A stretch of DNA of 34,810 nt from an uncultured Pelagibacteraceae bacterium (GTDB lineage Bacteria; Pseudomonadota; Alphaproteobacteria; Pelagibacterales; Pelagibacteraceae). Position numbers and translations under genes: made by a program. Location of the stretch: positions 25,001-59,810 of the forward strand of contig CABYDK010000002.1 in NCBI GenBank assembly GCA_902517735.1, given 5' to 3'. How positions within the stretch are numbered: the first letter of the stretch is position 1; every line of letters begins with the position of its first letter. Shown here one piece after another: positions 348 through 14,975 of this stretch. The notes below the pieces were generated by a model. The model did not search any database, was not told where the DNA came from, and was given only the letters and a program-made list of their open reading frames with translations.

Positions 348-2153
348 ATGAAAACTTTCAAAAAACTTGTATTTCTCTTAACAACAAAAGATCGTAAAAT
401 AGCAACTCTTTTAATGTTCATGATTTTAGTCATGGCTATTTTAGAAACTCTTGGTTTAATTTCTATATTACCGTTCATGGCTGTATTAGCTAACCCAGAG
501 ATAGTCGAAACAAATAATTATCTCAAAAAAATTTATGAGTGGTCAGAAATTTTAGGCGTTGAAAGTACAAGACAATTTTTATTTATATTAGGGACTTTTG
601 TTTTTTTAACTTTAGTAGTATCACTTTCATTCAAAGCTCTTACTGTTTATGTGCAAATACTTTTTAGTACATTATGCAGATATAATCTAGAACGAAGAAT
701 GATAGAAGGGTATTTAAATCAGCCTTATAGTTGGTTTTTAAGTCGTCATAGCTCTGATCTTGGTACAAATATTCTTGATGAAGTTGGCACTGTTGTTAAC
801 AAAGGAATAGGACCAATGATGGATCTTATTTCTCGTATTGTTGTTTCTGCCACAATAATTTCTTTACTTATAATAGTTGATCCAAAACTCACATTTATAG
901 TTAGTTTCACTCTTGGTTCAGTATATGCTTTGATTTATTTTTTAAGTAATAATTTTATTAAAAATTTAGGTCAATCTCGTCTTAATGCAAACAGATTAAG
1001 ATTTAATGCAATAAGCGAAGCTTTTGGAGCTATTAAGGAAATTAAAATAGGTGGGCTAGAAAATATATATATCAAAAGATATTCTAAACCAGCAAGAAAG
1101 GTATCAAAAAATCAAGCTTCGTTCGGAGTAGTGAGCCTTTTGCCTCGATATGCACTTGAAATAATTGCTTTTGGGGGAATACTACTTTTAGTGCTTTATC
1201 TCATGGTAAAGACTAACAATTTTATAAATGCAGTGCCTATTATAGCATTATATGTTTATGCTGGATATCGTTTGATGCCTTTGTTGCAAGGAATCTACAA
1301 TTCTGCAGCCCAGCTACACTTTGTTGGTCCTTCGCTAGAGTCATTATATGAAGAATTAATAAAATTCAAAAAATCAAGTTCAGATCATACTAAAGATAAA
1401 ATAAGTCTTATGAAAAATTTAAGTCTAAAAAATATTTCATATCAGTATCCTAATTCATCAAAAATTATTCTAAATAATATAAATCTAAATATTTCAGCCC
1501 AAACAAGTATTGGAATAGTAGGAGTGACGGGGAGTGGCAAAACAACAATAGTTGATATCATTCTCGGTTTACTCGAAGCTCAAAAAGGTAGTTTAGAAAT
1601 TGATGATAAAGTAATTGATAAAAATAATATTAGAGCTTGGCAAAGATCAATTGGATATGTGCCTCAGCATATTTATTTAGCAGATGACACAATAGCAGCA
1701 AATATAGCTTTTGGTGAAAATGTTGAATCAATTGATCAAAAAGCAGTGGAACATGCTGCAAAGATTGCATGCATACATGAATTTGTTGTTAATGAATTAC
1801 CTTTAAAATATCAGACTAAGGTAGGCGAACGTGGAGTTAGGTTATCAGGTGGTCAGTTACAACGAATAGGAATTGCTAGAGCACTATATCATGCCCCACA
1901 AGTGTTAATTTTAGATGAACCGACAAGCGCTCTAGATAATTTTACCGAGCAGGCAATAATGGAATCTTTGCACAATATAAGAAGTGATTTGACGATTATT
2001 ATGATTACTCATCGTATTGATACAGTAAAAAAATTAGATAATATAATCTTAATCGAAAAAGGTAGCATCAAAGGTCAAGGAACTTATGAAGAATTGATTA
2101 ATAAGAATATCAATTTTATAAGCACAAAAGATAAAGGCAAAGAAATCATATGA
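348..2153 (+). CDS. ABC transporter, fused permease/ATP-binding protein (PglK/MsbA-like lipid-linked glycan flippase)
   Basis: N-terminal membrane domain; Walker A GVTGSGKTT, signature LSGGQLQRIGIARAL, Walker B VLILDEPTSALD, H-loop ITHRID. Lies in a glycan island. Confidence 0.88.
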   Translation: MKTFKKLVFLLTTKDRKIATLLMFMILVMAILETLGLISILPFMAVLANPEIVETNNYLKKIYEWSEILGVESTRQFLFILGTFVFLTLVVSLSFKALTVYVQILFSTLCRYNLERRMIEGYLNQPYSWFLSRHSSDLGTNILDEVGTVVNKGIGPMMDLISRIVVSATIISLLIIVDPKLTFIVSFTLGSVYALIYFLSNNFIKNLGQSRLNANRLRFNAISEAFGAIKEIKIGGLENIYIKRYSKPARKVSKNQASFGVVSLLPRYALEIIAFGGILLLVLYLMVKTNNFINAVPIIALYVYAGYRLMPLLQGIYNSAAQLHFVGPSLESLYEELIKFKKSSSDHTKDKISLMKNLSLKNISYQYPNSSKIILNNINLNISAQTSIGIVGVTGSGKTTIVDIILGLLEAQKGSLEIDDKVIDKNNIRAWQRSIGYVPQHIYLADDTIAANIAFGENVESIDQKAVEHAAKIACIHEFVVNELPLKYQTKVGERGVRLSGGQLQRIGIARALYHAPQVLILDEPTSALDNFTEQAIMESLHNIRSDLTIIMITHRIDTVKKLDNIILIEKGSIKGQGTYEELINKNINFISTKDKGKEII

Positions 2154-3946
2154 TAATACTAGGTATTCATGATGGACACGATGCATCAGCATGTTTAATG
2201 ATAAATGGCAAAATAATTGCTGCTAATCAAGAGGAAAGATTTAGTAAACTTAAGGGAGAATATGGTCTACCTTTAAAAGCAATAAAATGTTGTTTAAAAC
2301 AAGGAAATATCTCAATAAAAGATATTGATGAAATTGCTGTAGCTAGCCATAAACTAAATCCTGTTTTACTTTTTATTAAAAGAAATGCAAATTTTACTGT
2401 TAATGATTGGGTAAAAGAACAAGAGGAGTATTGGTATAATGTTTTTTATCTTAAAAAGAAAAAAATCAATTATTATAAAATTTTTAAAAATAGATTTAAA
2501 AAACTTGATAAGTACTATGATTTTAAAAGTTTAATTAATTTATATAATGACAAAGATTTAATAAAAAAATTTAAACAAATTCGTTTAGAGTGTATTTCTA
2601 AGAATTTAAATTTTCCTCAAAATAAAATAAAATTTTATACTCATGAATTTTGCCATATTTATTACTCATATTATTTTTATCCTGAAAGAAAAAAAGGAAT
2701 CGCTATCACTAGTGAGGGTATAGGAGATTTTTCTAATGGTTCGGTTGGAACTATTCGAAATGATAAATATAAATTAAACTCATATACTAAAAAAAATCAC
2801 TTAGGTCATATTTACCAATATATTACTTTACTTTTAGGAATGAAGCCAAATCAGCATGAATATAAAACTATGGGACTAGCACCCTATGCTTCATTTTACG
2901 AAATAAATAAAATATTTCCATTACTAGATAAAGTATTAAAAATTAAAAATTTAAACATTACTTTTAACAAAAAACCCAAAGATCTTTATTTCCATTTTAA
3001 AAAAGTATTTCATGGTGCTAGATTTGATGGTATCGCAGGAGCAGTACAAAAATTTATTGAATTAAAATTATTACAATGGTTCTTGATGTGTAAAAAGAAG
3101 TTAAGAATAAATAGATTTTATTTTTCAGGAGGTGTTGCACAAAATATCAAAGCTGCTATGTTTTTAAATAAGTCTAAAAAACTAGGAAAGATAATCGTAC
3201 CTCCAGCCGCGGGTGATAGTACTTTATCAATTGGTGCTTGTTATCATTCTATGCATTTAAAAAATCTTAATGATTACAAAAAAGTGAGACTATCTCCTAT
3301 AAAAACCATGTATCTTGGATATAAAAATAATTCTAAAGATATCGAAAATTATATTAGTAAGAATAGATTAAATAAAAAATTTAAAGTAATTAAGAATTAT
3401 AAACAAGATAGAGTTGCAAAGATAATTTCTCAAGGCAAAATAATTGGAAGATGTTGTGGTGGCATGGAATTTGGTTTAAGAGCACTTGGTAACAGATCTA
3501 TTCTAGCTGACCCAAGAAAATTTGAAACAGTAGCAAAAATTAATCAAAAAATTAAGAAAAGAGATTTTTGGATGCCTTTTACTCCTTCTATATTATTTGA
3601 AGATAGAAAAAAATTTTACAAAAATCCTAAAAATTTAAATGCTAAATTTATGAGTATGGCTTTTGAAACAACGGAGTTTGGTAGAAAAAATTTGAAAGCA
3701 GCAATTCATCCTGCTGATTTTACAATAAGGCCACAAACTGTAAAAAAAGAGGATAATAAAAGTTATTACGATCTGATTAAATCTTTTAAAAAAATTACCA
3801 AAATAGGCGCTTTACTAAATACCAGTTTAAACTTACATGGTATGCCGATAGCTTTAAATCACATAGATGCTTTGTATATTTTAAAAAATTCTGATCTAGA
3901 TGCAATGGTATTTGATAAAGTAATTGTTTTAAAAAAAAATCTATAG
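2150..3946 (+). CDS. carbamoyltransferase, NodU/TobZ/CmcH family
   Basis: N-terminal GIHDGHDASACLMINGKIIAANQEERFSKLKG and C-terminal CCGGMEFGLRALGNRSILADPR motifs; 598 aa. Confidence 0.9.
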   Translation: MIILGIHDGHDASACLMINGKIIAANQEERFSKLKGEYGLPLKAIKCCLKQGNISIKDIDEIAVASHKLNPVLLFIKRNANFTVNDWVKEQEEYWYNVFYLKKKKINYYKIFKNRFKKLDKYYDFKSLINLYNDKDLIKKFKQIRLECISKNLNFPQNKIKFYTHEFCHIYYSYYFYPERKKGIAITSEGIGDFSNGSVGTIRNDKYKLNSYTKKNHLGHIYQYITLLLGMKPNQHEYKTMGLAPYASFYEINKIFPLLDKVLKIKNLNITFNKKPKDLYFHFKKVFHGARFDGIAGAVQKFIELKLLQWFLMCKKKLRINRFYFSGGVAQNIKAAMFLNKSKKLGKIIVPPAAGDSTLSIGACYHSMHLKNLNDYKKVRLSPIKTMYLGYKNNSKDIENYISKNRLNKKFKVIKNYKQDRVAKIISQGKIIGRCCGGMEFGLRALGNRSILADPRKFETVAKINQKIKKRDFWMPFTPSILFEDRKKFYKNPKNLNAKFMSMAFETTEFGRKNLKAAIHPADFTIRPQTVKKEDNKSYYDLIKSFKKITKIGALLNTSLNLHGMPIALNHIDALYILKNSDLDAMVFDKVIVLKKNL

Positions 3947-4641: not shown

Positions 4642-5493
4642 TTAATCCACTTTAAAACTTAATAACTTTAGCGAAGTATCTTTACAACCTAAAATTATAG
4701 ATCTTTTATTATATTTTATTGTTCCAGGTTTGATTTTTCTATTGAAAATTTTGGCTTTATTTATAATTATTTTTTTTTTACTGTTTATGAAATAAGGATG
4801 AGGATAAGGTTTTTTTAAAGCCTTTATCATTGCAAGAACTTTTAACGCGGGAGTTTCTTCGGGTAGAAATAAACTATCTTTTTCTGTTCTTTGGCTCCAA
4901 TATTTTGCATACTTATTATTTTGAGCTTTAAGTTTCTTATTTTTTTTTAAATCAAATATAGATTTCAAAACTAGCTTTGGAAAAATTGAATTGGAAATTT
5001 TGTGAACTTTTAAAATATCATAATTTTTATTTAAAAATTTTGTTTCGTTAATAATTTTACCTTTGTCTATTCCTTTAGAAACTTTTATAATAGATAAGCC
5101 TATATATTTTTCTCTATTAATAATTTGCCAATTGAGAGGGGAGCCACCTCTATATTTTGGTAATTTACCTGCATGGCAATTTATCATGCCGTATTTTGAT
5201 AAGTTTAAATAACTTTTTGGAAATATATAAGGAAAGCCACAAATTATAATTAAATCCATTTTTTTTATAAAGTTTTTGATATTTTTTTTTTTTAAATTTC
5301 TTATTATTTGATAGGGAATATCAAATTTTCTTATTCTTTCATAAATTTTTTCATTTAGGAACTTTTTTGAGAGAAAAATTTTATCAATTTTGATTTTTTT
5401 GTTTTTAAAAAACTTAATTAATTCAAATCCCCTTTCACCATTCATAAATAATGATATTTTGAAATGTATTTCTTTATTGAAATTATTCATCAT
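4642..5493 (-). CDS. formyltransferase family protein (methionyl-tRNA formyltransferase-like; probable sugar N-formyltransferase)
   Basis: MINCHAGKLPKYRGGSPLNWQI carries the N-x-H of the formyltransferase catalytic triad; GIDKGKII supplies the downstream Asp. Confidence 0.82.
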   Translation of the reverse strand: MMNNFNKEIHFKISLFMNGERGFELIKFFKNKKIKIDKIFLSKKFLNEKIYERIRKFDIPYQIIRNLKKKNIKNFIKKMDLIIICGFPYIFPKSYLNLSKYGMINCHAGKLPKYRGGSPLNWQIINREKYIGLSIIKVSKGIDKGKIINETKFLNKNYDILKVHKISNSIFPKLVLKSIFDLKKNKKLKAQNNKYAKYWSQRTEKDSLFLPEETPALKVLAMIKALKKPYPHPYFINSKKKIIINKAKIFNRKIKPGTIKYNKRSIILGCKDTSLKLLSFKVD

Positions 5494-5541: not shown

Positions 5542-6225
5542 TTGACTACAGCAATTATACAAGTGAGGCTTAATTCTAAAAGATTGCCTGGGAAGGCCTT
5601 GCTTAAAATCAACAATAAAACAATATTACAGAATATTATAGACAGATTAAAAAAATCTAAATCTATAAAAAAAATAATTGTATCAACTTCTGATAATAAT
5701 AGTGACTATCCGATAGTTCGTTTTTGTAAAAAAAATAAAATATTATTTTTTAAAGGATCATTAAATCATGTTTTCAATAGAGTAAAAAAGACCTCAAAAA
5801 AATTTAAATTAAACTATTTTTTAAGGGTTTGTGCTGACAGCCCGTTAATTGATCCAGTTTTAATTGATAGATGTATAAAAAAATATATCAATGGATATTA
5901 CGATATTGTTACTAATAAATTTCCAAGATCGTACCCAAAAGGACAAACAGTTGAAGTTATTAAGGTGAGTGCATTAAACAAAATTAATGAAAAAAATTTG
6001 ACTAGAAAACAAAAAGAGCATTTTACGAAATATTTTTATGATAACCCAAAAGAATTCAAAATTTATAATTTGAATTTTCCAAAACAAAAAAAATATGTTT
6101 CTATGGCATTAGATAACAAAACGAACTTTTATTTTTTGAGAAAATTAAGCAAAAAATATAAAAACAATATTAATAATTTGTCTTTAAATCGATTAATAAA
6201 AATTTATGAAAAAAAAAATATTTAA
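5542..6225 (+). CDS. cytidylyltransferase family protein (SpsF-like; probable CMP-nonulosonate synthetase)
   Basis: TTG start; TTAIIQVRLNSKRLPGKALLKI, VSTSDNNSD, RVCADSPLIDP; nucleotidyltransferase of the SpsF/NeuA/KdsB type. Confidence 0.82.
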   Translation: MTTAIIQVRLNSKRLPGKALLKINNKTILQNIIDRLKKSKSIKKIIVSTSDNNSDYPIVRFCKKNKILFFKGSLNHVFNRVKKTSKKFKLNYFLRVCADSPLIDPVLIDRCIKKYINGYYDIVTNKFPRSYPKGQTVEVIKVSALNKINEKNLTRKQKEHFTKYFYDNPKEFKIYNLNFPKQKKYVSMALDNKTNFYFLRKLSKKYKNNINNLSLNRLIKIYEKKNI

Positions 6226-7201
6226 TGCTGCAGTAATTGGTTTAGGTGTTGGTATACATCATGTCAATGCTTTAGAGAAACATTCTAACTGCCGAGTAAA
6301 AAAAGTTTATGATTTTAAAAAATCAATTCAAACCAAATTTAAAAAAAATTTTCCTTATATTGAATTTGCTAAAAACGAAAATGAAATTTTTCAAGATAAA
6401 GAAATTAACATAGTCTCTATAGCTAGCTACGATAATTTCCATTATAATCAAATAATAAAGTGTATTAAATATAAAAAAAACATAATTGTAGAAAAACCAA
6501 TTTGTTTAACTCAAAAACAATTAAGTTCTATTAATAACTTATTAAAAAAAACAAATTTAAAAATAACTTCAAATATGGTTTTAAGAACTACAGGTTTATT
6601 CAGAGAAATAAAAAAAAAAACTTTAAATAAAGATATAATTTCTATAGAAGCAGATTATTTATGGGGAAGGTCTCATAAGTTATATCAATGGAGATCCAAG
6701 ATAAATGATTATTCAATAATTCATGGATGTGCTATTCATGTTATTGATTTAGTTTTATGGTTATTAGAAAAAAAACCGATTAAAGTTTATGCAATAGGAA
6801 ATAATATTGGAGTAGATTCAAAAAAATTTAAGAAAAACTCTTATGTAATTATTCTTTTGAAATATAACAATAAATTAATTGTCAAAATTACAGCGAATGC
6901 TATCTCAGTGTTTCCACATTTTCATGAATTAAAAATTTACTCTAAAAATTCATCAATAATTCATAATTTACAAGGATCTATTGAAATAATAGGAAATAAA
7001 AAAAAGAAAAAATTATCTTCAAATTATCCCGACAAAAAAAGCAGGTTTAATATAATTCATAGTTTTGTAGACAATTTAAAAAATAGATATACTAGATCTA
7101 TAGTTGATAAAAAAGACATTATGAATTCTATGAGTATATCTTTAGCAGCTGAAAAATCTTTAAAAACAGGAAAAGAAATTGAAATAAAATATGAAAATTA
7201 A
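6206..7201 (+). CDS. Gfo/Idh/MocA family NAD(P)-dependent sugar oxidoreductase
   Basis: AAVIGLGVGIHHVNAL Rossmann start, IIVEKPICLT (EKP motif), HGCAIHVIDLVLWLL. Confidence 0.88.
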   Translation: MKKKIFNAAVIGLGVGIHHVNALEKHSNCRVKKVYDFKKSIQTKFKKNFPYIEFAKNENEIFQDKEINIVSIASYDNFHYNQIIKCIKYKKNIIVEKPICLTQKQLSSINNLLKKTNLKITSNMVLRTTGLFREIKKKTLNKDIISIEADYLWGRSHKLYQWRSKINDYSIIHGCAIHVIDLVLWLLEKKPIKVYAIGNNIGVDSKKFKKNSYVIILLKYNNKLIVKITANAISVFPHFHELKIYSKNSSIIHNLQGSIEIIGNKKKKKLSSNYPDKKSRFNIIHSFVDNLKNRYTRSIVDKKDIMNSMSISLAAEKSLKTGKEIEIKYEN

Positions 7202-8276
7202 TTTTTCAAATAATAAAATAAAAAAACAAGATATTAAACAGGTTGAAAAAATTTTAAAAAGCGGGTGGTTAACTCACGGCAAAAATACAATTAATTTTGA
7301 AAACGAATTTAAAAAATTTACGGGAGTCAAATTTGCAATTACTGTCTCAAGCTGTACCGCTGGATTGCACCTATCTTGCTTAGCATTGAATTTAAAAAAA
7401 GGTGATGAGGTAATTGTTCCATCACAAACTCATGTGGCTACTGCGCATGCAGTTAAATTAACTGGTGCTACGCCAATTTTTTGTGATGTTGATTATCTAA
7501 CAGGATTAATAAATCCTAATAAAATCAAAAAGTTAATTACTAAAAAAACTAAAGCTATAATAATAGTACATATCAACGGTTTTTCTTGTGATATTGAGGA
7601 AATAAAAAAAATTTGTAAATTAAAAAAGATAAAGATCATTGAAGATTGTGCACATGGTCTAGGTACCTTATATAAAAAGAAACATGTTGGAAATTTTGGA
7701 ATTTCAGGAGTTTTCTCTTTTTATCCAACAAAACAAATAACCACTGGAGAAGGAGGAATGCTTATAACGAATAATAAAGAATTTGCAAAAAAAATTAGAT
7801 CCATTAAAGCTTTTGGAATTGATAAGGATATAACCCAGAGAAAAATTCCTGGATACTATGATGTGAAGGAATTGGGAATAAATTATCGTATGACTGATTT
7901 TCAGGCTGTAATTGGCTATAAGCAATTAAAAAGATATCCTAAAGAACTAGTTTTAAGAAAAAAAAATGCGAAATATTTATATTCACTTTTACAAAATGTA
8001 AAAAATATAAAATTACCTAAATTTAATGAGGACTATTCTTATTTTATTTTTCCTATACATTCTAATTTGAGAAAAGATTTAATGGAGAAATTAAAAAAAA
8101 AAAAGATTGGTTTTAGTATTCATTACGCTAAAGCACTTAATCAAATGACTTATTATAAAAAAAAATCCTGTAAAATGGTAAATGCAGAAAAGTATGCTAA
8201 AACAAATATATCTTTACCAATTTATGGTGAGCTATCAAAAAAAAAATTAAATTATATTTTTAAGGTTTTAAAATGA
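7191..8276 (+). CDS. DegT/DnrJ/EryC1/StrS family PLP-dependent sugar aminotransferase
   Basis: SSCTAGLHLSCLAL, VIVPSQTHVATAHAVKLTGATPIFCDVD, IEDCAHGLG, FSFYPTKQITTGEGGM (PLP lysine), YRMTDFQAVIG. Confidence 0.94.
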   Translation: MKINFSNNKIKKQDIKQVEKILKSGWLTHGKNTINFENEFKKFTGVKFAITVSSCTAGLHLSCLALNLKKGDEVIVPSQTHVATAHAVKLTGATPIFCDVDYLTGLINPNKIKKLITKKTKAIIIVHINGFSCDIEEIKKICKLKKIKIIEDCAHGLGTLYKKKHVGNFGISGVFSFYPTKQITTGEGGMLITNNKEFAKKIRSIKAFGIDKDITQRKIPGYYDVKELGINYRMTDFQAVIGYKQLKRYPKELVLRKKNAKYLYSLLQNVKNIKLPKFNEDYSYFIFPIHSNLRKDLMEKLKKKKIGFSIHYAKALNQMTYYKKKSCKMVNAEKYAKTNISLPIYGELSKKKLNYIFKVLK

Positions 8277-9280
8277 AATCTAAGAAAAGAGTATTATTAG
8301 TTGGAGGTTTAGGATTTATAGGACACAATTTAGCACTTAAATTAAAACAAGATTTTGAACCTATTGTAGTTGACGGTTTAAATGTAAATAATTATCTAAA
8401 TTTTGCTGACCCAGATGTTAAAAATAGAGATCTATACTCAACAATTTTACACACAAGAATTAAATTGTTAAATAAAAATAACATTAAGATGATAGTGCAA
8501 GATGCTAGAGATTATCATCAGATGTCGAAAATTTATAATGAATATAAACCAAGTATTATTATTCACTTAGCAGCTGTATCGCATGCTAATAAATCCAATA
8601 AAGATCCACACAATACATTTGACCACAGTTTAAGAACACTTGAGAACACACTTGATATTGCTAAATCGAATAAAACACATGTAATATATTTATCTTCTAG
8701 TATGGTTTATGGAGATTTTAAGGGCGAGACGGCTGTAGAGAGTCAAAACTGTAACCCAATTGGTATCTATGGTTCTCTAAAAATGGCCGGAGAAATTATA
8801 GTGAAATCATATAATCAAGTTTTTAATTTGCCATACACAATAATAAGACCTTCAGCGCTATATGGTGAAAGATGTGTTAGCAGAAGGGTTGGACAAATCT
8901 TTATTGAAAATGCAATTCAAAATAAAGAAATAACAATTAACGGCAGTGGAGATGCAAGACTAGATTTTACCTATATTGATGATTTTATTATAGGTATAAT
9001 GCTTTGTTGCAAAAAAAAAAGTGCGAGAAATCAAACCTTTAATCTAACCTATGGTAATGGAAGAAAAATTTCTGATTTAATTAATATTATTAAGAAAAAA
9101 TACCCTAAAATAAAGATTGTAAAAAAAAATAAAGAGGCTTTTACACCTGAAAGAGGTACTCTTAGTATTGATAAAGCAAAAAAATTACTGGGATATAAAC
9201 CATCTTTTCCAATAGATAAAGGTTATAAAAAATATTTAAAATGGTACCAAACTTTTTGGAAAAATGAATTTTCTAAATAA
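8273..9280 (+). CDS. NAD-dependent epimerase/dehydratase (extended SDR)
   Basis: VLLVGGLGFIGHNLA, HLAAVSHANKS, SSSMVYGDF, YGSLK (YxxxK), RPSALYGERC. Confidence 0.92.
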   Translation: MKSKKRVLLVGGLGFIGHNLALKLKQDFEPIVVDGLNVNNYLNFADPDVKNRDLYSTILHTRIKLLNKNNIKMIVQDARDYHQMSKIYNEYKPSIIIHLAAVSHANKSNKDPHNTFDHSLRTLENTLDIAKSNKTHVIYLSSSMVYGDFKGETAVESQNCNPIGIYGSLKMAGEIIVKSYNQVFNLPYTIIRPSALYGERCVSRRVGQIFIENAIQNKEITINGSGDARLDFTYIDDFIIGIMLCCKKKSARNQTFNLTYGNGRKISDLINIIKKKYPKIKIVKKNKEAFTPERGTLSIDKAKKLLGYKPSFPIDKGYKKYLKWYQTFWKNEFSK

Positions 9281-10268
9281 ATTTAAAAAAATTAAAAAAC
9301 CTTTAATAATTGCCGAGATAGGAAACAATCATGAAGGAAGTTTTAAAAACGCTTTAAAATTAATTGATGCAGCAAAAAAGTGTGGTGTAGATGCTGTGAA
9401 ATTTCAGACATTTAAAACCCATCTTTATTATTCTAATCAAGACATTAAAAGACTAAAAAGACTTAAAAAATTTGAATTATCATTTGATCAATTTTCTAAA
9501 TTAGCAAAATACGCAAAAAAAAAGAATTTGATTTTTATATCAACACCTCTTGATTTTGAAAGTTTGGATCATTTAAAGAAAATTGTTGATATCATTAAAA
9601 TATCATCTGGAGACAATAATTTTTATGATCTAATTAAAAGTTCGGTAAATTCAAAAAAAGAGCTTATTATATCTACTGGGCTTACTTCATTAAAAGAAAT
9701 AAGAAATCTTAAAAAATTTATTAAAGATTTAAGTTATACTAAAAATTCTTACTTTTTACACTGTGTATCGAATTACCCAGTTTATACGAAAAATGCTAAT
9801 TTAAATTTTATATTAAAATTAAAAAAAATTTTTAAAGATAATATTGGTTATTCAGATCACACAATTGGTATTGATGCTTGTCTAATTTCTTTTTTATTAG
9901 GATCATCAATTATAGAGAAACACTTTACACTAGATAAATCATTCTCAAATTTTAGGGACCATTCTATTTCTGCTGATCCTAAGGATATGAGTTTATTAGT
10001 AAAAAAAATTGAAATGTATAGAGAATTGATCAATGATAAAAAGGTAAATTATTTAAATTGCGAAAATAATGAAAGAATATTATTTAGACGATCGTATTAT
10101 TTCAATAAAGACTTATCAAAAAATTCAATAATTAATGATAAAGACATTGTACCTTTAAGACCTGGTAATGGAATTCAATTAAATAAAAAACATTTAATCT
10201 TAAATAAAAAGATTATCAAAAATGTAAAAAAGGGATCAATAATTAAATTATCAGACTTAAAAAATTAA
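9264..10268 (+). CDS. NeuB/SpsE-family nonulosonic acid synthase with C-terminal SAF-like domain
   Basis: IAEIGNNHEG, VDAVKFQTF, ISSGDNNFYDL, HCVSNYPVYTKNANL, GYSDHTIG, IEKHFTLD; C-terminal antifreeze-like/SAF segment. Confidence 0.93.
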   Translation: MNFLNKFKKIKKPLIIAEIGNNHEGSFKNALKLIDAAKKCGVDAVKFQTFKTHLYYSNQDIKRLKRLKKFELSFDQFSKLAKYAKKKNLIFISTPLDFESLDHLKKIVDIIKISSGDNNFYDLIKSSVNSKKELIISTGLTSLKEIRNLKKFIKDLSYTKNSYFLHCVSNYPVYTKNANLNFILKLKKIFKDNIGYSDHTIGIDACLISFLLGSSIIEKHFTLDKSFSNFRDHSISADPKDMSLLVKKIEMYRELINDKKVNYLNCENNERILFRRSYYFNKDLSKNSIINDKDIVPLRPGNGIQLNKKHLILNKKIIKNVKKGSIIKLSDLKN

Positions 10269-10274
10269 TTTTAT

Positions 10275-12110
10275 ATGTGTGGAATAGCAGGTTTTTATGG
10301 ATCAAAATTGCCGACAAAAAACAATATTATTAAATCTAGTGAACTTATCAAACACAGAGGACCAGACGCTAGTGGGTCAGTAATATTAAAAAAAGATAAA
10401 TTAGTTTTTCTTCATCGAAGATTATCAATAATTGATATTGACAAAAGATCAAATCAACCGATGGAATATGATAACACTATTTTAATTTTTAATGGAGAAA
10501 TTTATAACTACATTGAAATTAAAAAAAAGTTAATTTTTATGGGGCATAAATTTAAAACAAATTCTGACACGGAAGTGCTTATTCATGCTTTAAAAGAGTG
10601 GAAAGAAAAAGCAGTAAATTTTTTGGAAGGTATGTGGGCGTTTGCTTGGTATGATAAGAACACAAAAACATTAATTTTATCAAGAGATAGATTTGGTGAA
10701 AAACCATTATATTATTTTTTCAAAGAAAAAGATCTTTTTTTTAGCTCTGAAATAAAATCTTTATCGGCGCTTTCTTCTAAAAAATTTAAAATTAATTTTA
10801 AAAAAATAGAGGATTTTTTGAAGAATGGATATAAATCCGCTTTTAAGGATAAAAATTTATTTTTTAAAGATGTAAAACAAATAAATCCAGGATCTCTTTT
10901 AATTATAAACAAAAATAAAAAAATAAAAAATATTGATTATTGGAAAAGAAAAACAAAATTTTTAAATAAAAAAATATCATATAAAAAAATAATAAATAAA
11001 AATAAAATTAATTTGATTAGATCTGTAAAACTAAGAACAAGATCAGATGTTCCAATTGGTTTTTGTATGAGCAGTGGAATAGACTCAAATGGATTAATTT
11101 CAATAGCCAAAAAACAGCTCAAACAACAAATAATTGGATATAATATTTATAGTAAAAATAAAAATTATGATGAGTATGATCTTACAAAAAAATCAGCAAA
11201 AGAACTCAATATTAGATTAAAATTAGTAAAAGTTCCTAAAGTAAATTTTCTTGAAAATTTAAAGAAAATAACTCATATCAGGGGATATCCGTTATTCACA
11301 ATATCCTATTTTTTACATTGGTTTATGATGAAAGAAATGAAAAAGGATGGAATTAAAGTCTCTATAAGTGGATCAGCTGCTGACGAAATTTATTCAGGAT
11401 ATATTGATCATTTTAATCAATTTTTATATCAGATTAAGAGTAACAAAGTACTTCTGAGTAAGACAAAATCTGATTGGCATAGGTATTTTGAAAAATTTGT
11501 TCAAAACAAAGATTTAAAAAAATATGATTTATATTTCAAAAATAAAAATTTTAGAAATCATATTTATGACAATTATCCAAATGAAATTTTTGTAACTAAA
11601 AAAAAATCAAGATTTTATGAAAAAAAATTTTCAGCAGATCTATTGAGAAATAGAATGATGAATGAATTATATTATGAAATTGTCCCAGTTTTACTTCATG
11701 AAGATGATTTAAATTCTATGAATTTTTCAATTGAAAACAGAACTCCTTATTTAGATAGAGAGATATATAATTTTATTCAAACAATACCAACAAAACATTT
11801 TGTAAAAAATGGATATCTAAAATCAATATTAAGAGACTCACTTAGTAAGATTACTCCAAATTTTATTATTAAAAATCGACAAAAAAAAGGATTTAATGCA
11901 TCAATATATGATTATATCGATATAAGATCAAAAAGTTTTAAATCAATTATTGAAAGCAAATCAAAAATATTTAACATTATTAAACGTAAAAAATTTTATG
12001 ATTTTATTTTAAAGAATAAATCACCTGAAAATAGTAAGCTTATTTTTCGTTTTCTTTCAGCAAAATTTTTTTTAGATCAAAATACCCAAATTGATAAAAG
12101 AACAAAATGA
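10275..12110 (+). CDS. asparagine synthetase B-like glutamine amidotransferase
   Basis: MCGIAGFYG N-terminal Ntn-glutaminase, IKHRGPDASG, FNGEIYNY, DTEVLIHALKEW, SRDRFGEKPLYY; PP-loop region FCMSSGIDSNGL. Confidence 0.92.
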   Translation: MCGIAGFYGSKLPTKNNIIKSSELIKHRGPDASGSVILKKDKLVFLHRRLSIIDIDKRSNQPMEYDNTILIFNGEIYNYIEIKKKLIFMGHKFKTNSDTEVLIHALKEWKEKAVNFLEGMWAFAWYDKNTKTLILSRDRFGEKPLYYFFKEKDLFFSSEIKSLSALSSKKFKINFKKIEDFLKNGYKSAFKDKNLFFKDVKQINPGSLLIINKNKKIKNIDYWKRKTKFLNKKISYKKIINKNKINLIRSVKLRTRSDVPIGFCMSSGIDSNGLISIAKKQLKQQIIGYNIYSKNKNYDEYDLTKKSAKELNIRLKLVKVPKVNFLENLKKITHIRGYPLFTISYFLHWFMMKEMKKDGIKVSISGSAADEIYSGYIDHFNQFLYQIKSNKVLLSKTKSDWHRYFEKFVQNKDLKKYDLYFKNKNFRNHIYDNYPNEIFVTKKKSRFYEKKFSADLLRNRMMNELYYEIVPVLLHEDDLNSMNFSIENRTPYLDREIYNFIQTIPTKHFVKNGYLKSILRDSLSKITPNFIIKNRQKKGFNASIYDYIDIRSKSFKSIIESKSKIFNIIKRKKFYDFILKNKSPENSKLIFRFLSAKFFLDQNTQIDKRTK

Positions 12111-13228
12111 AATTGAAATACTGTATTAAATGTTTAATGCCGAATACAAAATTGTATTTAAAATTTACCGGTGGTGTTTGTAATACATGTATTTACCATA
12201 AAGATTACAAAGATTCTAAACAAAAGATTGATTGGAAATTTAGACAAAAAGAATTTGATAAATTAATTAAAAAAATAAAAAAAATTAATGCACCAACTTT
12301 TGATGCTCTAGTCCCAGTGAGTGGTGGAAAGGATAGTATATATCAAGTTCATAGATTATTGAACAAAGGTTTGAGAATTTTAGCGGTAAATATTGACTAT
12401 GGAATAAAAACTAAAATTGGTTATTCAAATTTACAAATAATTCCAAGCATGGGTGCAACATTAATAACTGTCAGACCGAATTTAAGAATACACAAAAAAA
12501 TTTTAAAAATATCATTCTTAGAATATGGAGATCCAGATTTAATGAGTCACTGTATGCTTCATGCTTTTCCAATAAGACTTGCATTGAATTTAAAGATACC
12601 ACTTGTTTTACTTGGTGAAAATTCTGCAATTGAATATAGTGGATCAATAAGAAAATATGATGACAAAAAAATTGATAATAAATGGTTTAAAAAATTTGCA
12701 GCTAATTTTAACTTAACTCCAAAAATTTTTTCTAAGAGACATAATATAAAATATAAATTTTTAAAAAATTATGACTTACCCTCAAATAATGAATTAAGAA
12801 AAACCAACGCTGTATTTGCCAGTTATTTTTTTAAATGGGATTCTCAAATAAACTTAAAAATTGCAAAAAAATATGGTTTTAATTCTTTGAAAAAGCCTGG
12901 TGAGGGAACGTATAGAAACTTTGTAGGAATTGATGAAAAAATCAACAGGATTCATCAATATTTAAAATATTTAAAATTTGGATATGGAAGAGCCACGGAT
13001 CATGCTTGCGAAGATATAAGAAATGGTAAAATTTCAAGGATAAAAGGCCAAAATTTAGTCATAAAGTTTGATAGAGTTCCGATTTCAAAATATTATTATG
13101 AGGATTTTATAAATCTAATTGGAATTAATGAAAAAAAATTTTTTTCTACATTAAAAAAAAATACAAACAAAAAACTTTTTAATATTAAAGGAAAAAATTT
13201 TTTATTCAAATCTAAGAAATTTGATTAA
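12107..13228 (+). CDS. N-acetyl sugar amidotransferase (PseA/WbpG family)
   Basis: N-terminal Cys cluster YCIKCLMPNTK...GGVCNTCIYH; PP-loop LVPVSGGKDSIYQVHRLL; LLGENSAIEYSG. Confidence 0.87.
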   Translation: MKLKYCIKCLMPNTKLYLKFTGGVCNTCIYHKDYKDSKQKIDWKFRQKEFDKLIKKIKKINAPTFDALVPVSGGKDSIYQVHRLLNKGLRILAVNIDYGIKTKIGYSNLQIIPSMGATLITVRPNLRIHKKILKISFLEYGDPDLMSHCMLHAFPIRLALNLKIPLVLLGENSAIEYSGSIRKYDDKKIDNKWFKKFAANFNLTPKIFSKRHNIKYKFLKNYDLPSNNELRKTNAVFASYFFKWDSQINLKIAKKYGFNSLKKPGEGTYRNFVGIDEKINRIHQYLKYLKFGYGRATDHACEDIRNGKISRIKGQNLVIKFDRVPISKYYYEDFINLIGINEKKFFSTLKKNTNKKLFNIKGKNFLFKSKKFD

Positions 13229-13594
13229 ATGGTAAATAAAAAAGTCAGAAAATTTAATACTAAAAGTAAGTTAAATACCAAAATTACTTTAGTAAAAAAA
13301 ATTTTTTTAAAAGAAAATCAACAAATAACTTTTCTTGAAAAATTCAAACAAAAAAAGAGGGAATACGATGTGGTTAAAAAAAGGTGGGGTTATTACGCTA
13401 CACCTTCAATTAATAAAAGACTTAAGAAATTTAGTTATGAATGCGCAATAATCAAAAACAATAATAATAAATTTTTTATATGTTTAGTTAATAAGAATAT
13501 GAAAAAAGAATTTAAATTTTATTTAAAAAAAGATGATCAACATATTGTTTGCTGGTTAAATCTTAAAAATTTAAAATTAATTGAGAAATTGTAG
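13229..13594 (+). CDS. small conserved-looking hypothetical protein linked to the amidotransferase
   Basis: 121-aa ORF starting directly after the stop of the PseA-like gene; VVKKRWGYYATPSINKRLKKFSYECAIIKN. Confidence 0.72.
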   Translation: MVNKKVRKFNTKSKLNTKITLVKKIFLKENQQITFLEKFKQKKREYDVVKKRWGYYATPSINKRLKKFSYECAIIKNNNNKFFICLVNKNMKKEFKFYLKKDDQHIVCWLNLKNLKLIEKL

Positions 13595-13604
13595 TCAAAA
13601 TTAA

Positions 13605-14975
13605 ATGAATATTTATATTAAGGTTGAAGTGAAAAGAAGAGAGCTAGAGTCAAGGTTATTATTAGCAATGGCAGCTGCCGAAAGAGGACATGAAGTATTA
13701 CTTGGATCTACTCCTTTAACATTGGATTTGGTTAGAAAAAATTTTTTGAAGCCTGGGATTATTTTTGAAAAAAGCATAGTGCCATCTGAGCGAAGAATTA
13801 AGCAGCTAAATGCTTATAAAGATAATAATTGTAAAATAACTGTAATTGATGAAGAGGGTGGATTTATAAACAATAATTTTAAAGAATTTCTAGAGGAGAG
13901 ATTTTCTGCAAAATCTGTCAAATTAACCGATAAAATTTTCACTTGGGGAATTAGGGATTATAAAAAATTTACATCCTATTTTAGAAAATATAAAAATAGA
14001 TTTTCTGCAACAGGTAACCCAAGAGTTGATTTTTGGCGAAAAGAATTTGATTATTATTATAAACATCAAAAATTAAGTCAAATTAAAACAGGCGATGATT
14101 TTATACTATTAGCATCAAACTTTGGTGCAATGTTGCACGAACGTAGAATTTGGCAAGAGGTTAAAGTTTTAAGAGATAAAAAAAATTTTGAAAGAGGTCG
14201 TGATGAATTCTTATATTATGAATTTAAATCATACCAAATTAGATTGGCTGCTAAATTTGTAAAAATAATTAGAGAAATATCGAAAAAATTTAAAAAATTA
14301 AAAATTGTAATCAGACCCCATCCTACAGAAAGTGTTGATGCCTGGAAATCAATTATAGGTCATCATAAAAATATTTTTGTAATACAAGATGGATCTATTG
14401 GAAAATGGATAAGAAAAACAAAATTATTAATTCATAACAGTTGTACAAGTGGAGTGGAATCTTACGCATCAAATATACCAACTATTGCATATAGGCCCTT
14501 AAAATCAAGTTTTGAATTTAAATTTCCAAATTCATTGTCTACTAATGTATTTGATGAAAAAAATTTAATTAAAAAGATAAGCAAAATTCTTAAAAGAAAA
14601 AAAAATTTCGAAAGTCAAAAAAATGGAAATTTAAATAATTATTTTTGTAATTTAAAAAACAATTTAGCCTCAGACAATATTGTAAAAGAGTGGGAAAAAC
14701 TTGATGATGGAAAATTATCTAAAAAAAATAATCTTCTCAAGTTAAAAACTATCGCAAACTTAAAAGAGTTTAAAGGTAAGTTAGTAAATAAAAGTTTTAT
14801 GAATAATCATAAAAATTCAGATCATAATAGCGCAAAGTACAAATTTCCTAAAATTACAAATAATGAATTGGAAAAAATCACCAATAACTTAAGAATTACT
14901 TTGAAAAGATTTAATAATGTTAATGTAGAACAAATTTCAGATAGATTGATTTTAGTAAACAATAAAAATAATTAA
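13605..14975 (+). CDS. surface carbohydrate biosynthesis protein (GT-B/CDP-glycerol-transferase-like)
   Basis: IYIKVEVKRRELESRLLLAMAAAERGHEVLLGS, VIRPHPTESVDAWKSI, LIHNSCTSGVESYASNIPTIAYRP. Confidence 0.78.
   Translation: MNIYIKVEVKRRELESRLLLAMAAAERGHEVLLGSTPLTLDLVRKNFLKPGIIFEKSIVPSERRIKQLNAYKDNNCKITVIDEEGGFINNNFKEFLEERFSAKSVKLTDKIFTWGIRDYKKFTSYFRKYKNRFSATGNPRVDFWRKEFDYYYKHQKLSQIKTGDDFILLASNFGAMLHERRIWQEVKVLRDKKNFERGRDEFLYYEFKSYQIRLAAKFVKIIREISKKFKKLKIVIRPHPTESVDAWKSIIGHHKNIFVIQDGSIGKWIRKTKLLIHNSCTSGVESYASNIPTIAYRPLKSSFEFKFPNSLSTNVFDEKNLIKKISKILKRKKNFESQKNGNLNNYFCNLKNNLASDNIVKEWEKLDDGKLSKKNNLLKLKTIANLKEFKGKLVNKSFMNNHKNSDHNSAKYKFPKITNNELEKITNNLRITLKRFNNVNVEQISDRLILVNNKNN

Follow-up and report, generated by a model that had tools for sequence, protein, structure and literature searches.

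A conserved and apparently undescribed variant of the nonulosonic acid operon in SAR11-order bacteria and other phyla

The described systems closest to the locus considered here are the pseudaminic acid (Pse) pathway (PseB/C/H/G/I/F, with the Pen/Pal variant of Bacillus thuringiensis) and the legionaminic acid (Leg) pathway (LegB/C/H/G/I/F, with the sps variant of B. subtilis) (PMC7439481). The locus is a block of eight overlapping or abutting genes, a real, conserved and apparently undescribed variant of nonulosonic acid (NulO) biosynthesis, in a 34.8-kb stretch of DNA (the window, meaning the whole stretch analysed) from a SAR11-order (Pelagibacterales) single genome of 684 kb that is 58% complete and whose close relatives are named Ca. 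Pelagibacter. Like the Pse pathway, this gene module has a PseC-like DegT aminotransferase, an N-acyltransferase, a NeuB-family synthase, and a CTP transferase, and the best PDB profile match of its short-chain dehydrogenase/reductase (SDR) is Pal (6bwl), a CMP-pseudaminate enzyme of B. thuringiensis. Unlike that pathway, it has an additional Gfo/Idh oxidoreductase, an SDR without the Arg of the RDF motif, a NeuB of another clade, and no PseG. With the Leg pathway it shares an SpsF-type CTP transferase, an aminotransferase, and a synthase, but it lacks the LegB-type dehydratase motif and LegG. A Gfo/Idh gene is also held by some Aeromonas NulO islands (PMC7874193). The module further resembles the WbuX/WbpG/PseA system in an N-acetyl-sugar amidotransferase (NASAT) that scores over the family cut-off, but that system works with HisH-HisF, and in 26 module loci a 121-residue protein, ORF121, takes their place, whereas nine sister loci keep HisH/HisF. 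We found no description of this operon in the open-licence literature, and it may have been described elsewhere.

The initial annotation reported a run of eight genes with 4- to 20-nt overlaps or nearly abutting ends, and all eight open reading frames (SpsF, Gfo/Idh, DegT, SDR, NeuB, AsnB, NASAT, and ORF121) were confirmed within positions 5542 to 13594. The overlaps are 20 nt (SpsF/Gfo), 11 nt (Gfo/DegT), 4 nt (DegT/SDR), 17 nt (SDR/NeuB), and 4 nt (AsnB/NASAT), with gaps of 6 nt between NeuB and AsnB and 0 nt between NASAT and ORF121. One relative (L032) carries the block at 75 to 97% identity and another (L033) at 72 to 89%, the latter with the SDR gene relocated and 56% identical and with NASAT and ORF121 absent. 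A NeuB search of 297 SAR11-order genomes returned two relatives at 84% and a group at 42 to 52%, apart from many canonical NeuBs; SpsF, Gfo, DegT, SDR, and NeuB stand together in most of that group, and the SDR is the best conserved (51 to 97% identity). With the SDR profile as hallmark, 84,980 species genomes yielded 298 relatives, the loci of 80 of which were examined, 74 with an SDR match above 200 bits. The common order was SpsF, Gfo/Idh, DegT, SDR, GNAT or formyltransferase, NeuB, AsnB, NASAT, and ORF121. The block is thus no chance arrangement but a conserved operon, shared by the two relatives and repeated with the same gene order in other phyla.

The module order was seen in about 15 phyla, with one methanogen (archaeal) metagenome-assembled genome (MAG) and cultured strains among the carriers; the cultured ones include Afipia birgiae and Spirulina sp. 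CCY15215. Proteobacterial carriers comprise SAR11 and other Alpha-, Beta-, and Gammaproteobacteria; others belong to the Desulfobacterota, Nitrospirota, Cyanobacteria, Verrucomicrobia, Chloroflexi, Planctomycetes, Bacteroidetes, Omnitrophota, Neomarinimicrobiota, and further groups. Among the 74 loci, DegT directly preceded the SDR (position -1) in 63, Gfo occupied position -2 in 54 and SpsF position -3 in 44, and NeuB followed the SDR at +1 or +2 in 48; AsnB was present in 54. A strong SDR was found in 15 of the 297 SAR11-order genomes versus 2 of 398 other genomes of a Pseudomonadota sample, and this patchiness suggests horizontal spread. No SDR match at 1e-40 was found among phage records. 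The operon, with the GNAT in place, is carried by plasmid p5 of the cultured Azospirillum brasilense MTCC4039, where the annotation splits the Gfo gene (NZ_CP032350.1:6675-7681, L160) into two overlapping pieces and omits SpsF and DegT, both of which tblastn detects.

The NeuB of the window has the hallmarks of its family, namely NeuB and SAF domains (PF03102, PF08666), the metal-binding His pair H199/H220, and the SAF Arg R299, all three residues being invariant. Nevertheless, it fell below both equivalog cut-offs (PseI, 210.6 versus 340.25 bits; NeuB_NnaB, 260.7 versus 399.65 bits), and the best of 36 module-clade members reached E=6e-94 with the NeuB_NnaB model. An F[RHK]DH motif marks the module NeuBs of many phyla, with other residues at the site in the PseI, NeuB, and SpsE structures; R231 is conserved in 34 and D232 in all of the 36 members. 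We compared them in a tree with SAR11 canonical NeuBs, four PDB synthases, and three plasmid genes annotated pseI/neuB, a set in which PseI, NeuB, and SpsE are represented and biochemically verified LegI is not, and a branch with 94/91 support separated the module NeuBs from the others. The initial annotation had named tight clading of this NeuB with characterised PseI, LegI, or NeuB as one observation that would speak against a non-standard operon; such clading was not seen relative to PseI, NeuB, and SpsE, in a tree without verified LegI. The signature residues suggest that the acceptor sugar itself would differ, i.e., that the changes occur before condensation.

The enzyme that usually releases the sugar for NeuB is missing. 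No PseG over cut-off was found in 19 genomes, the module carriers except G110 showing only partial weak stretches, and of 13 carriers searched for NeuC/LegG (Epimerase_2), 11 gave no match over cut-off; for comparison, Epimerase_2 is present in three of six canonical-cluster genomes. Near-complete carriers with neither Epimerase_2 nor PseG over cut-off were G066, G044, G048, G056 (97%), and G125 (96%), followed by G110 (94%), G139, G149 (92%), and G150 (91%). Among 120 unassigned neighbour proteins outside SAR11, the 25 commonest families included no hydrolase. Without PseG, LegG, or NeuC, the usual hydrolysis of a nucleotide sugar is probably not the source of the NeuB acceptor. The claim of a non-standard NulO operon thus stands on the position of NeuB outside the sampled PseI/NeuB/SpsE clades and below both cut-offs, together with the absence of NeuC/LegG and over-cut-off PseG from near-complete SAR11 carriers.

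The acyltransferase is a different case. The initial annotation saw neither an acetyltransferase nor a hydrolase, and there is indeed no GNAT, PseG, NeuC, or LegG in the window, but it overlooked an intact formyltransferase that adjoins the block, 48 nt away, with N-x-H and D catalytic residues readable in the sequence (INCHAGKLPKYRG ... GIDKG). By score and context, this protein is less likely a housekeeping Fmt than a sugar formyltransferase. Homologues lie between SDR and NeuB in L105, L110, L121, and L127, and most non-SAR11 loci have a GNAT of about 247 residues at that place; one or the other was detected in 36 of 42 non-SAR11 loci. SAR11 loci, where any acyltransferase was recognised, have a formyltransferase or small GNATs nearby. 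With such an enzyme beside the block and a GNAT or formyltransferase within the operons of relatives, the module probably does have its acyltransferase, and gene context makes N-formylation or N-acetylation of the amine probable. In a further set of loci (L099:12912-14530, L065, L085, L090, L104, L113, L116, and L120), a formyltransferase and a polysaccharide deacetylase follow NeuB as a pair, as if N-acetyl were swapped for N-formyl.

At the 3' end of the block lies ORF121, a protein that accompanies NASAT in 26 of the 38 loci with NASAT, adjoins it in 22, and is never found without it. HisH/HisF, absent from the window, occur in nine other NASAT loci and never with ORF121 (Fisher p = 1.3e-6, uncorrected for phylogeny). 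In two lineages ORF121 is fused to an S-adenosylmethionine (SAM) methyltransferase (L063:2089-3300 in SAR11 and L126:15703-16908). Its structure model (pLDDT 91) gave no match with E<0.7 in a fold search of the PDB, and its alignment contains no conserved Cys suited to a glutaminase. ORF121 is a new protein family and, from its co-occurrence, a candidate partner of the amidotransferase. AsnB occurs in loci of either class, with ORF121 or with HisH/HisF, and so is not simply a HisH substitute.

Dehydratases of the SDR family carry TDE where the module protein has SSSMVYG (SSSM in 34 of 34 aligned members), and we rejected a 4,6-dehydratase role for it on this ground. The corresponding motif of Pal, STCMVY, has the same Met. 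A PseB/Pen dehydratase was not found in the operon, the scope within which PseB was sought. At the RDF motif, the Arg of the aligned PDB SDRs, which in this family usually contacts the nucleotide diphosphate, is Leu or Ile in the module (L230 in the window protein). DegT matched PseC best among NCBIfam models but, at 313 bits, stayed under the cut-off of 423. Gfo keeps Lys97 of the EKP motif and His178, has an invariant Gly174 (GGGIH loop) where inositol dehydrogenases have their catalytic Asp, and shows invariant R155, K158, R163, H238, and H240. Its nearest structural neighbours are inositol dehydrogenases and 1,5-anhydrofructose reductase; RgNanOx and YjhC are also among them, and GH109 is not among the top 50.

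Gene content, gene order, co-occurrence, the NeuB clade, and the absence of NeuC/LegG and over-cut-off PseG from near-complete carriers were observed directly. We propose, with moderate confidence, that the conserved module encodes an uncharacterised pathway to a CMP-activated, amidine-tailored N-acyl-amino NulO. Gfo/Idh and the SDR would interconvert hydroxyl, keto, and stereo centres of a hexose-derived precursor, the PseC-like DegT would install an amine, and a GNAT or, in the window, the adjacent formyltransferase would N-acylate it. The FRDH-type NeuB would then condense the acylated product with phosphoenolpyruvate, and SpsF would make the CMP-NulO. AsnB and the NASAT-ORF121 pair are predicted to tailor the sugar, with NASAT converting N-acetyl to acetamidino, and the finished sugar would enter the surface polysaccharide encoded around the block. 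If it is di-N-acylated, the computed mass of the free sugar would be 334.138 for a 5,7-diNAc, 9-deoxy form, 320.122 with one formyl, 333.154 with an acetamidino group, and 350.133 for a 9-OH form made without dehydration. The free sugar for NeuB might arise in two ways: the intermediates may not be nucleotide-linked, in keeping with an SDR in which Leu or Ile stands for the Arg that usually binds the nucleotide, or release of the sugar may fall to an atypical enzyme, for which Gfo is the only candidate in the core.

Several points weigh against this proposal. Many cross-phylum carriers are MAGs, and the source genome is incomplete. G110 has a full-length PseG-like protein near a second NeuB (96.6 bits, below cut-off), and G292 and G248 have Epimerase_2 elsewhere in the genome. 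More than half of the SAR11 loci have no recognised acyltransferase, partly owing to short contigs. Finally, G164 couples SpsF-Gfo-DegT-SDR with a NeuB that lacks FRDH, and G305 does likewise, so the pairing of this NeuB with the module is not absolute. In favour of the pairing, all 13 SAR11 genomes with the FRDH NeuB also have the SDR, in one case cut by a contig end.

The likeliest specific mechanism, a narrower form of the proposal that we hold only tentatively, is oxidation-transamination before condensation, in which Gfo oxidises a hydroxyl, DegT aminates the same carbon, and the SDR sets stereochemistry. Pairs of this kind are known in WbpB/WbpE, GnnA/GnnB, and NtdC/NtdA. Gfo directly precedes DegT, with which it overlaps, and the two are adjacent in most loci, and with an SDR that lacks dehydratase residues Gfo is the most obvious maker of a ketone. 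However, the known pairs act at C3, and a nitrogen at C3 of a hexose would end up at C6 of the NulO, the ring-oxygen carbon; the hydrolase gap is likewise unexplained unless the substrate is not nucleotide-linked. The pairing put forward in the initial annotation is plausible, but Gfo is not obligatory for a DegT-SDR pair: closely related pairs occur in two SAR11 genomes, G017 (99% complete) and G301, that have neither Gfo nor an FRDH NeuB. These pairs (L130:8815-10943 and L115:8889-10996) are flanked by glycosyltransferases and, in G017, also by a GNAT. Their DegT proteins differ in the substrate loop (TPPEKRK versus [DN][KR]..R), as the mechanism would allow, which weakened our earlier inference that the absence of Gfo proves its independence from DegT.

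In split-operon genomes such as those of L091, L083, L073, and L057, Gfo and an F[RK]DH NeuB are kept with one or both away from the SDR. Per locus, Gfo and an F[RHK]DH NeuB were both present in 52, Gfo only in 16, NeuB only in 3, and neither in 3, in a set with many short contigs. Together with the lack of Gfo beside DegT-SDR pairs without this NeuB, this points to a role of Gfo that is specific to the NulO, possibly the missing sugar-freeing step. By analogy with the NAD-dependent Gfo/Idh-fold glycosidases (GH109, SqgA), Gfo could replace the hydrolysing 2-epimerase through oxidation, NDP elimination, hydration, and reduction, giving a free C2-epimerised sugar for NeuB; we regard this as unlikely. 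Consistent with it, NulO specificity within the core is confined to Gfo, SpsF, and NeuB, near-complete carriers lack NeuC/LegG and over-cut-off PseG, and the inositol-dehydrogenase Asp is replaced by Gly. The likeness to GH109/SqgA is one of fold, the nearest folds are those noted above with GH109 outside the top 50, and just two Gfo-less cases with close homologues are at hand, their DegT being different. We know of no such NDP-sugar-cleaving activity among Gfo/Idh enzymes. Redox-assisted cleavage of glycosides is nonetheless known in the same fold, where an active-site Lys contacts the C3-OH (PMC10755693), and we accordingly dropped the argument that a retained EKP lysine bars Gfo from cleaving. 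The combined form, a new NulO route of bacteria and an archaeon that dispenses with a nucleotide-sugar hydrolase, Gfo freeing and epimerising the sugar by oxidation, elimination, and hydration and the ORF121 family replacing HisH/HisF, is a doubtful prospect.

It is also improbable that NeuB makes a plain NulO that Gfo, DegT, and SDR modify after condensation, in analogy to EpaA/EpaB at C8 of Pse or KdnAB on 3-deoxy-D-manno-octulosonic acid (Kdo). RgNanOx and YjhC, Gfo/Idh enzymes acting on sialic acids, are among the structural neighbours of Gfo. EpaA/EpaB offer a precedent with a CTP_transf_3-AKR fusion (PMC12053666). The module-specific NeuB clade suggests an acceptor that is already different, G017 has DegT-SDR without any NeuB match, and NeuB would need a free sugar all the same. 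The particular analogy to 8-amino-Kdo in the initial annotation, which shares the idea of oxidation and transamination, found no specific support: the NeuB signature suggests changes before condensation, and no Kdo genes were identified in the operon, no comparison with Kdo or KdnB sequences having been run. KdnB is an iron alcohol dehydrogenase and not a Gfo/Idh enzyme, and no iron alcohol dehydrogenase was among the annotated window proteins, no dedicated KdnB search having been made. An ordinary Leg or Pse operon with its hydrolase and dehydratase simply elsewhere would fit a PseC-like DegT and a source genome of 58% completeness, but it is very improbable and largely contradicted by the near-complete carriers that lack NeuC/LegG and over-cut-off PseG, by a NeuB outside the sampled characterised clades, and by the lack of a recurrent hydrolase among the 120 neighbour proteins.

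Family searches identified the remainder of the window as a surface-polysaccharide region with a PglK-like ABC transporter, a carbamoyltransferase, glycosyltransferases, a WecA-like transferase, and an FkbM methyltransferase, adjoined by PntAB and further housekeeping genes; the block and its immediate neighbours are listed in Table 1. The carbamoyltransferase, of the NodU/NovN type (window positions 2150-3946), adjoins the cluster and has relatives in module loci L080, L059, and L095; O-carbamoylation of the glycan is possible. A UDP-sugar 6-dehydrogenase lies directly upstream of SpsF in L053, L065, L067, L068, L109, L113, and others.

Table 1. Genes of the block and its immediate neighbours, in window coordinates
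Feature	Position	Strand	Remarks
Formyltransferase, ArnA-N/Fmt-like, candidate pathway N-acyltransferase	4642..5493	-	PF00551/PF02911; divergent, 48 nt from SpsF
SpsF-like CTP transferase, putative CMP-nonulosonate synthetase	5542..6225	+	PF02348, E=1.3e-26
Gfo/Idh oxidoreductase, distinct subfamily	6206..7201	+	PF01408; model pLDDT 96
DegT/PseC-like pyridoxal phosphate (PLP) aminotransferase	7191..8276	+	PF01041, 1e-111; PLP lysine K181 kept
Extended SDR, epimerase-like/Pal-like	8273..9280	+	PF01370/PF16363; SSSMVYG, L230
NeuB-family synthase, FRDH clade	9264..10268	+	PF03102, 1.3e-61; PF08666
AsnB-type glutamine amidotransferase, predicted tailoring role	10275..12110	+	TIGR01536, 387 > 267 cut-off
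N-acetyl-sugar amidotransferase (WbuX/NASAT), predicted acetamidino tailoring	12107..13228	+	TIGR03573, 273.4 > 203.2 bits
ORF121, new family, 121 aa	13229..13594	+	motif WG[YF]YATPS[IL]NxRL; no family match
TIGR04396 surface carbohydrate biosynthesis protein, context	13605..14975	+	10 nt downstream of ORF121

Sialic acid-like NulO sugars are predicted in genomes from Pse, Leg, and Neu genes, and such models would mis-call or miss this operon. The module raises the questions of how NeuB is supplied with its sugar without PseG, LegG, or NeuC and of what ORF121 does in acetamidino formation. With the module in abundant ocean bacteria and in many phyla, the repertoire of surface sugars that bears on phage receptors, adhesion, and extracellular polysaccharides would be under-counted.

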